From NCBI RefSeq assembly GCF_030552895.1, contig NZ_CP130649.1:1054001-1118000 (forward strand): a stretch of DNA of 64,000 nucleotides. The letters are read 5' to 3'. Below the pieces are notes generated by a model. That model saw only the letters and a program-made list of their open reading frames with translations, did no database searches and had not been told where the DNA came from. The position numbers were made by a program, and so were the translations under genes. Shown here one piece after another: positions 22,188-37,882 of the stretch. The stretch is from Tatumella ptyseos (GTDB taxonomy: Bacteria > Pseudomonadota > Gammaproteobacteria > Enterobacterales > Enterobacteriaceae). Numbering within the stretch: position 1 is the stretch's first letter; each line of letters opens with the position of its first letter.

Positions 22188-22419
22188 AATAGGGCCCTGA
22201 AGTAAGTAAATGTTCGTTTTATCATCAAGAGTGTAATCTTTCTGGAAAATAACATTGAGTTGACAGATTTTTTTACAAATACCAGGCCAAATCCGTAAAC
22301 AGACTTAGCTTTTTCTAACTCTACACGCGTATGATGCTGTCGCCAGCTTTTTGCCCTTTTGGGTGGAAGGCAGCCTGTATCCTGTACAGAAGATTGACTT
22401 TGACAATATTAGACGAAAA

Positions 22420-35659: not shown

Positions 35660-36187
35660 ATGAAAAAAATTGCATGTCTTTCAGCTTTAGCTTGTTTACT
35701 CGCCGTTTCTGCAGGTTCTGCGATGGCTAAAAGCACCGTTACTGGTGGTTACGCACAAAGCGATTACCAAGGTGTTTTAAACAAAGCTAACGGTTTCAAC
35801 TTAAAATACCGTTACGAAGATGAGTCTAATCCATTAGGCTGGATCGCATCTTTCACTTACACCGAAAAAGATTCTAACAAAAACGTAAACGACTACCGTA
35901 AAGGTCAGTACTACGGAATCACTGCAGGTCCAGCTTACCGTCTGAATGACTGGGCTAGCATCTACGGTGTAGTGGGTATCGGTATCGGTCGCGTTCAAAA
36001 CAACGCTGAAGGTCACGGTGCAGCAGGTTACAACAACAAGAGCAACAGCGATGTTGGTGTTGCTTACGGTGCTGGCCTGCAATTCAACCCGTGGGAAAAC
36101 GTTGCACTTGACGTTGGTTACGAGCAAAGCCGTATCCGTAACGTGGATGTTGGTACTTGGATCGCTGGTGTTGGTTACAGCTTCTAA
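35660..36187 (+). CDS. ompX: Outer membrane protein X
   Basis: 175 aa, an eight-stranded beta-barrel of the OmpX/Ail/PagC family. Signal peptide is residues 1-23 (SAMA|K). Alternating-hydrophobic strands (TVTGGYAQSDY, GFNLKYRYE, YYGITAGPAYRL, VALDVGYEQSRI) end in GVGYSF, with the C-terminal Phe needed for BAM recognition. The ribosome site is GAGG. The codon bias is strong (GGT, AAC, CGT), as expected for an abundant protein. In E. coli ompX mRNA is targeted by small RNAs; no such RNA gene is visible here. Confidence 0.96.
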   Translation: MKKIACLSALACLLAVSAGSAMAKSTVTGGYAQSDYQGVLNKANGFNLKYRYEDESNPLGWIASFTYTEKDSNKNVNDYRKGQYYGITAGPAYRLNDWASIYGVVGIGIGRVQNNAEGHGAAGYNNKSNSDVGVAYGAGLQFNPWENVALDVGYEQSRIRNVDVGTWIAGVGYSF

Positions 36188-36204
36188 TTGTACACTTCCT
36201 AAAA

Positions 36205-36230
36205 AACGACCCTTAGGGTCGTTTTTTTTT
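36205..36230. terminator. Bidirectional terminator shared by ompX and the mntS-like gene
   Basis: Stem ACGACCC (36206-36212) / GGGTCGT (36216-36222), loop TTA, flanked by A-run on the left and T-run on the right, so it works on both strands. The - strand mntS-like gene stops at 36229. Confidence 0.9.
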
Positions 36231-36375
36231 ACCTGAAAAAAATATGCACTAAGCGTTTTAAAAAATAAAGGCGTAATTGAAAAGGAGAGAGTGTCGCGAA
36301 TCCATATAGCGACATATCAGGTGACGGTAAGCGGGAGCTATTCACTGCGCTGGGCTGTTGGTAACCACGAGTCAT
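36229..36375 (-). CDS. mntS: MntS-like small manganese-response protein (putative)
   Basis: 48-residue gene read from ATG 36373-36375. A textbook Shine-Dalgarno AGGAGG (36383-36388) lies 7 bases upstream. The product has a C-terminal core FATLSPFQLRLYFLKRLVHI that resembles the E. coli MntS core FSHSPFKVRLMLLSMLCDM (shared SPF-x-x-RL-x-x-L). As in E. coli, it lies between ompX and mntR, divergent from mntR, behind two MntR boxes. E. coli MntS raises intracellular Mn by inhibiting the exporter MntP and is repressed by MntR. The N-terminal half is not conserved with E. coli. Homology rests on the short core plus context. Confidence 0.72.
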   Translation of the reverse strand: MTRGYQQPSAVNSSRLPSPDMSLYGFATLSPFQLRLYFLKRLVHIFFR

Positions 36376-36427
36376 GTCGCATCCTCCTAATCGATGGTGA
36401 CAAAAAAATAGTCAATAGTATTATTTT

Positions 36428-36441
36428 ATAGCATAGGCTAT
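36428..36441. promoter_or_regulatory. MntR box 1
   Basis: ATAGC-ATAG-GCTAT, a perfect 5-bp palindrome with 4-bp spacer, matching the enterobacterial MntR operator core ATAGC-N4-GCTAT. It overlaps the likely promoter of the mntS-like gene (on the - strand TTGTAT, 17 bp, AATACT). Confidence 0.8.
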
Positions 36442-36446
36442 ACAAT

Positions 36447-36460
36447 TTAGCCAATGCTAT
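36447..36460. promoter_or_regulatory. MntR box 2
   Basis: TTAGC-CAAT-GCTAT, the same palindrome with one mismatch, 19 bp (about two helical turns) from box 1 and therefore on nearly the same DNA face. Confidence 0.72.
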
Positions 36461-36548
36461 GCGAGAAAAAGGGTTGAGCTTGATCTCATCTCGTTTAAGA
36501 TAGTGAGTATGGTCGGTAACGCCGACATTGGCCTTGTAAGGAATTTTG

Positions 36549-37016
36549 ATGAACACCCCAAATACTCGTGTAAAGCCAACTATTGGCCCGATCAAAGATC
36601 TGGAAAACCATGTTGAAGGTTTCAAACAGGTCAGAGAAGCACATCGCCGTGAATTAATCGATGACTACCTCGAGTTAATTTCTGATCTTATTCATGAATT
36701 TGGTGAAGTTCGTCAAGTGGATATGGCAGCCCGTTTAGGGGTTTCACAGCCTACAGTTGCAAAAATGCTTAAACGATTAGCGGCTGCAGGACTTATCCAG
36801 CAGATACCTTATCGGGGCGTATTTCTTACCCAAGAGGGGGAGAGTTTGGCCCAACAGAGCCGTGAACGCCATGCCATCGTTGAAGAATTTTTATTAAGTC
36901 TAGGGATCTCTCCTGAAGTTGCTCACTGCGATGCGGAAGGTATTGAACACCACGTGAGTGACGAGACCTTAGCCGTTTTCAAAACCTTTATCGCAAAAAA
37001 GAACCTCAATCCATAG
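36549..37016 (+). CDS. mntR: Manganese-responsive transcriptional regulator MntR
   Basis: DtxR-family repressor of Mn uptake. It has 155 aa, as in E. coli. The winged-helix DNA-binding part is [28 protein letters not shown] (recognition helix SQPTVAKML). Metal-binding residues lie in [13 protein letters not shown] and the [12 protein letters not shown] region. The ATG at 36549 has AAGGAA five bases upstream; a TTG at 36546 is too close. It is divergent from the mntS-like gene, with the two MntR boxes between them. Confidence 0.95.
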
Positions 37017-37483: not shown

Positions 37484-37882
37484 ATGAGCGACGTTTTTAA
37501 ATTACTGAACAATATCCGTACACTCCGCGCACAAGCTCGTGAAGTTGAGTTAACTGACCTAGAAGAGATTTTAGAAAAATTAACGACTGTTGTGACTGAG
37601 CGTAGAGAAGAGATTGAAGCTGAAGAAGCGTTAAATCGTGAAAAAGCTGAAAAACTTTCTAAATACCGTGAATTATTAGCAGCGGAAGGTATCGACCCAA
37701 GCGAACTATTGGGCACGACTGAGACTAGTAAAAAACGTGCAAAACGTGCACCTCGCCCAGCTAAATACGCTTATACCGATGAAAATGGCGAGAAGAAATC
37801 TTGGACTGGACAAGGCCGCACGCCAGCTGCAATCAAAAAAGCACTGGACGAAGGTAAGTCTCTCGACAGCTTCTTGATCTAA
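37484..37882 (+). CDS. H-NS/StpA-family nucleoid-associated protein
   Basis: 132 aa. N-terminal dimerisation helix region [30 protein letters not shown]. Charged coiled-coil linker to about residue 75. C-terminal DNA-binding domain [25 protein letters not shown], with the AT-hook-like QGR motif. Length and the ending [10 protein letters not shown] are closer to StpA (EGKSLDDFLI) than to E. coli H-NS, while the N-terminus looks like H-NS. Whether it is the main H-NS or a paralogue cannot be decided from this window. Position (between mntR and ybiT) differs from both E. coli genes. AAAGGG lies before the ATG, and a UUCG-capped terminator follows. Confidence 0.92.

Follow-up and report, generated by a model that had tools for sequence, protein, structure and literature searches.

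A small gene divergent from mntR in the genome analysed here appears to be a divergent MntS-type gene, of a known kind that lies outside the current NCBI model, and the family to which it belongs looks modular. We consider it probable that the ORF is a far-diverged mntS that Mn-loaded MntR would repress and whose peptide would, at low Mn, slow the exporter MntP. As far as sequence can support it, the mntS reading holds on position, orientation, predicted MntR boxes, core motif and selection. Our claim is that this is a divergent orthologue of the MntS kind; no membership of the NF033226 equivalog is claimed.

The gene was examined in a 64-kb stretch of DNA (the window) from a genome of 3.2 Mb. 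The MntR encoded in the window is 94-97 % identical to those of Rosenbergiella epipactidis, R. metrosideri, R. gaditana and R. collisarenosi, the nearest named mntR loci, and the next relatives (Tatumella, Pantoea and others) share 70-81 % identity in the best segment. Hence, the window genome was placed in Rosenbergiella, and the five Rosenbergiella referred to below are the window genome and these four species. The features are as follows.

35660..36187, plus strand: ompX, the convergent neighbour (NF006917, 295.8 bits, cut-off 176)
36201..36229: hairpin with A/T flanks, read from the sequence and kept in the five Rosenbergiella species
36229-36375, minus strand: mntS-like ORF of 48 codons with an ATG start, MTRGYQQPSAVNSSRLPSPDMSLYGFATLSPFQLRLYFLKRLVHIFFR, not in the ORF list
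36268..36288, minus strand: codons of the conserved core SPFQLRL (residues 30-36), from an alignment of 35 family members
36383-36388, minus strand: Shine-Dalgarno sequence AGGAGG, 7 bases to the ATG
36428-36441: predicted MntR box 1, ATAGCATAGGCTAT, exact arms, found in all five Rosenbergiella
36442..36447, minus strand: putative mntS -10 between and touching the boxes; AATTGT in the window, weak (3 of 6)
36447-36460: predicted MntR box 2, TTAGCCAATGCTAT, one mismatch, starting 19 bp from box 1
36474..36501, plus strand: putative mntR promoter TTGAGC-N16-TAAGAT, outside the boxes
36549..37016, plus strand: mntR (NF008273, 237.9 bits, cut-off 153)

The ORF and its conservation in Rosenbergiella

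The 48-codon minus-strand ORF preceded by AGGAGG was present between ompX and mntR as originally predicted; it is divergent from mntR, on the ompX side of a gene whose product is 70 % identical, where aligned, to the MntR of E. coli. The claim of good spacing between AGGAGG and the ATG was also borne out, and the motif itself is retained in three of the five Rosenbergiella species, R. gaditana and R. collisarenosi having a weaker version. The T run of the hairpin at 36201..36229 extends to the stop codon of the ORF, and this hairpin is placed to serve as a candidate two-way terminator for ompX and the mntS-like gene, though a consensus terminator scan counted none at this position. After mntR lies an H-NS/StpA-type gene (37484-37882) that did not reach the curated cut-off of either model, and elsewhere in the window (22328-22410) a Peptidase-S11 RNA motif scored over the gathering score.

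One of the results that would have spoken against the original prediction, the lack of a conserved frame in related genomes, was looked for and not found. When the 48 residues were used to search 59 genomes, including the window's own, strong matches were obtained in all four other Rosenbergiella (E 6e-12 to 6e-5) and nothing clear was found outside that genus, the next match having an E value of 0.01. The location, start position, core and both boxes are the same in these four genomes, and the frame is conserved in all of them. In a five-species DNA alignment, both boxes and the candidate terminator hairpin are conserved, as are the start codon and the core; the sequence varies between the boxes and the ATG and in the N-terminal codons. 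Three database clusters carrying no protein name have the same length as the window ORF and are 85-98 % identical to it; the closest of these is probably the window's own protein.

Conservation as a protein is seen in the core, taken as 19 codons for the codon comparison, where dN was lower than dS in all seven pairs with finite dS among the ten pairs formed by the five species (dN 0.09 and dS 1.11 for the window and R. gaditana). Synonymous versus non-synonymous codon changes in the core numbered 9 versus 1 between R. gaditana and R. epipactidis, 8 versus 2 between R. gaditana and R. metrosideri, 7 versus 3 between R. gaditana and the window, 3 versus 1 between R. epipactidis and R. metrosideri, 4 versus 3 between the window and R. 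metrosideri, and 9-10 versus 5-6 in the R. collisarenosi pairs. The comparison of the window with R. epipactidis, at 2 versus 3, counts against the mntS reading. The N-terminal part changes faster than the core. Its dN was 0.36 to 1.5 in all of the ten pairs but the closest, for which dN was 0.07 and dS 0.06; nevertheless, dN was below dS in six of its seven finite pairs.

Predicted MntR boxes and promoters

The paired boxes 19 bp apart are as originally described, one exact and one with a single mismatch, and they are conserved in all five Rosenbergiella. No exact ATAGC-N4-GCTAT other than box 1 occurs in the 64-kb window, and box 2 is one of two sites with one mismatch. When up to two mismatches were allowed, 36 sites were found in the window, compared to an average of 29.0 in shuffled sequences, and 10 of 100 shuffles reached 36. 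As the two-mismatch pattern is therefore not rare in the window, the case for the boxes is made by the exact site, the pairing and the conservation. Boxes with up to two mismatches were also counted in 79 intergenic regions (77 named regions, that of E. coli and that of the window). Two were found in 74 regions, three in three and one in two, compared to an average of 0.12 in shuffled regions. The 19-bp spacing occurs in 77 of the 79, so the pair is general at the mntR locus and no peculiarity of the window genome. The window genome's own mntH also has a 19-bp box pair upstream, and its mntP, the only mntP scanned in this way, has one exact box upstream.

At the promoter, the predicted sites are conserved as sequence. 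The boxes bracket the putative mntS -10, a spot conserved across loci as A...T and occupied in E. coli by TATAAT, with the annotated 5' end of RybA 7 bases further on, but a scan with the sigma-70 consensus found no minus-strand promoter at the mntS-like gene and a single plus-strand match at 36397-36424. For mntR, 67 of the 79 regions have an element of the form TTGnnC-N16-TAnnnT that lies past box 2 by 9-15 bases, compared to 4 of 3950 shuffled regions. By this arrangement, the predicted operators would sit at the putative mntS promoter, whereas the likely mntR promoter lies downstream of them and is not covered. Hence, the suggestion that the paired operators could autoregulate mntR, also part of the original prediction, is not indicated and has become a weak one.

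Relationship to MntS and spread of the family

E. coli MntS (b4705, within RybA; NF033226) is likewise divergent from mntR, with side and orientation as in the window, though opgE lies between mntS and ompX in E. coli whereas ompX adjoins the mntS-like ORF in the window. The two also have in common the MntR-type boxes 19 bp apart, a small ORF led by a Shine-Dalgarno sequence and the SPFxxRL core. The match of the core to MntS was confirmed in an alignment of 35 members, in which P31, F32 and L36 are invariant and S30, R35 and L38 occur in at least 90 %. As anticipated, the N-terminal half is unlike that of E. coli MntS: the window protein has 48 residues compared to 42, with 29 rather than 13 ahead of the core, and it lacks the C-terminal polar tail of the E. 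coli protein and contains no cysteine. Following SPF it has LKRL where E. coli MntS has LSML, the N-terminus is lineage-specific, and, at 25 % identity in the alignment, similarity outside the core is negligible.

A profile built from 69 distinct family members, none of them from Rosenbergiella, ranked the ORFs of the window and the four other Rosenbergiella loci 1-5 of 2714 segments, with E values of 4e-5 to 0.012 (0.012 for the window) and the next segment at 0.15. None of 4677 scored shuffles (5000 were made) reached the 13.7 bits of the window protein. Because the best shuffle scored 13.6 and the window score fell to -1.9 once the seven core residues were masked, the sequence case consists of the core plus synteny; beyond the core, the mntS case rests on position and predicted regulation.

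The window protein gave no match to the NCBIfam model for MntS (NF033226, cut-off 36 bits), and its relatives, one member of each type being run, were all below the cut-off: 14.0 for that of R. epipactidis, 29.1 for the Erwinia type, 20.7 for the Tatumella type and 16.5 for the Pantoea type. The E. coli protein, run without the initial Met, scored 93.4 bits. The window ORF matched no Pfam family. Many members from Erwinia, Pantoea, Mixta and Tatumella carry a precomputed assignment to PF26599, which is absent from the three Rosenbergiella clusters, and part of the breadth of the family may already be catalogued under this accession. Hydrophobic moments were scattered (0.03 to 0.41 among six members), and for this reason no amphipathic helix is claimed.

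Among 80 named mntR loci kept of 271 found, a sample biased towards relatives of the window genome, 75 have a divergent ORF with SPFxxR and two more have one with TPF..R or SPF..K, giving 77 of 80. No mntS-like ORF was seen in the remaining three (Phaseolibacter flectens, Erwinia typographi and Buttiauxella sp. A111), though P. flectens (L216, the same organism as L063) has both MntR-type boxes 19 bp apart. Within the Erwiniaceae, the Erwinia type (about 30-45 aa), the Pantoea/Mixta type (about 63 aa) and the Tatumella type (63-77 aa) share locus, boxes and core with the window gene, and a long N-terminal part is common to the Rosenbergiella, Pantoea and Tatumella types. The expectation of a family broader and more variable than E. 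coli indicates was borne out by this occurrence in several classes of length and sequence.

When one genome per genus was surveyed, 71 of 154 sampled genera had mntR and, in 53 of these, a small ORF lies beside it (50 with [ST]PF..[RK] and three with SPL). In nine further genera (L184, L186, L233, L235-L238, L240 and L245), the mntS slot holds a SitA-type frame whose signal peptide contains the MntS core; family models were run on the L184 and L186 copies, and two of the nine frames end after 82-89 residues. Neither was found in the remaining nine genera, namely five with genomes of 0.7-1.2 Mb, two with an MntH-like frame, Phaseolibacter and one other. In the two with an MntH-like frame (L254 and L255), this frame, named by eye, is divergent from mntR and occupies the mntS slot.

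The 2015 MntS paper remarked that the ORF could not be recognized outside close relatives of E. coli and raised the possibility that small size had hidden it elsewhere (PMC4361602). The synteny survey (53 of 71 genera) bears out the idea of an overlooked ORF within the family, the forms tested being below the NCBI cut-off, and suggests that the tiny MntS family is more widespread and more varied than its E. coli namesake.

The origin of the family was approached with profile A3, for which at most 15 candidates were scored in each of 394 genomes of the order. At least 20 matches had E values of 2e-11 or better, and the seven examined, the window among them, are MntS-like. Next were two long frames (E 5.6e-6 and 3.5e-5), both divergent from mntR, which encode PF01297 binding proteins whose best NCBIfam matches, below cut-off, are Mn/Fe or metal-binding types; we take these to be SitA-type. 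Their signal peptides contain SPFRLRLMLIGMI or SPFHLRLMLVGMI, and NF033226 matches residues 40-62 of one such protein at 26.1 bits (cut-off 36). A SitA/YfeA-type Mn/Fe-binding protein (PF01297) has a signal peptide with an SPFxLRLML core and a gene divergent from mntR. It is a full binding protein of >300 residues, whereas the window ORF stops soon after the core, at 36229, and is followed by ompX rather than by codons for a mature domain. From these sequences we arrived independently at an origin of MntS in a SitA signal peptide, as Wright et al. are said to have concluded in Mol Microbiol in 2024, and the likely evolutionary starting point is seen in those genera where a SitA-type gene fills the mntS slot.

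In the five Rosenbergiella, no core was found in the first 80 residues of the PF01297 proteins (nine full frames and a truncated tenth), and the two of the window genome are encoded away from the mntR locus. The second PF01297 protein of R. epipactidis (L040) is a 78-residue frame that covers only profile positions 201-260 and looks truncated. One more match to profile A3 (G510, E 3.1e-5) ranked between the two long frames; it is SPFWLRVVLLKTL, and the 28-residue frame that contains it lies opposite one of 424 residues.

Proposed function and alternatives

If the gene functions as mntS does in E. coli, from which MntR occupancy, membrane action and MntP inhibition are all carried over, then at ample intracellular Mn both boxes, which surround the -10 and start site of the divergent promoter, would be occupied by Mn-loaded MntR, and the mntS-like gene would be off. 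Scarce Mn would release MntR and allow the 48-residue peptide to be made. The hydrophobic segment of this peptide, SPFxLRLxLLKRL, matches the SitA-type signal-peptide core and would act at the inner membrane; by slowing the Mn exporter MntP, the peptide would let the cell retain Mn. The window genome has one match each to MntP and to the Nramp protein MntH, and mntP is present in all five Rosenbergiella genomes. A review names MntS as a presumed inhibitor of MntP (PMC10710835), and the evidence for such inhibition in the published account consulted is indirect. By aligned position, the Rosenbergiella proteins keep the core and not the residues outside it that the literature highlights, which fits inhibition of MntP by a hydrophobic core. 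The natural MntS variants are a ready set for locating the residues that inhibit MntP. No Mn riboswitch was found upstream of mntP in the five Rosenbergiella loci, but nothing is concluded from this, as E. coli mntP gave no match in that search either.

The changed residues after SPF, together with the lineage-specific N-terminus, would also be expected of a small membrane peptide that remained under MntR control and had switched its target from MntP to, for example, an importer. This is unlikely, given that mntP is present throughout the five Rosenbergiella and that the arrangement of the boxes is the same as in E. coli. The resemblance of the core to a SitA-type signal peptide, and the two surveyed genera in which a similarly starting frame beside mntR ends after 82-89 residues, raise the question of whether the ORF is merely the decaying, non-functional remnant of such a signal peptide. 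However, the start position, open frame and core have been kept in five species, the core has dN below dS and the boxes have been kept, making decay highly improbable.

E. coli mntS is annotated as the RNA RybA as well, and the 2015 paper leaves room for a role of the RNA in other contexts (PMC4361602). That a RybA-like regulatory RNA is what has been conserved, with the frame incidental, is nonetheless scarcely credible, as changes in the core follow codons and the stretch from the boxes to the start codon is variable. No Rfam family reached its gathering score in 36000-36700, a result that is not decisive because no family was obtained for the RybA region of E. coli either.

Returning to the mntS reading, a tentative extension, and one we hold to be rather doubtful, is that MntS is a modular family in which a signal-peptide-derived SPFxLRLxLL core would act on the Mn exporter and lineage-specific N-terminal heads would tune it. 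These heads have conserved cysteines in Pantoea and Mixta, are Cys-rich in most Tatumella, are almost absent in Erwinia, and are fast-changing and cysteine-poor in Rosenbergiella. If this were so, Mn export would respond directly to metal or redox state by way of the cysteine head. No paper on MntS was among those listed in a literature search that covered Pantoea and Erwinia.

CxxC precedes the core in 41 of 79 members (the Pantoea, Mixta and Tatumella types) and in none of the five Rosenbergiella, which also lack the C-terminal C..LIWRG that is usual in the Pantoea/Mixta type. At L067 (3023-3211), L068 (3028-3219) and other Pantoea/Mixta loci, members of about 63 residues have a CCxDCxKC-type N-terminus and a C..LIWRG C-terminus; the core dN/dS of this 63-residue Pantoea class was left out, as the fixed core window was partly misaligned. 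Among 15 distinct members of 64 residues, residues 1-14, which include the cysteines, had a median dN of 0.06 and dS of 0.64 (76 of 105 pairs finite), compared to 0.08 and 0.87 for the core and 0.49 and 0.97 for the linker, and by these values the cysteine part looks like a second constrained module in many Pantoea-group members.
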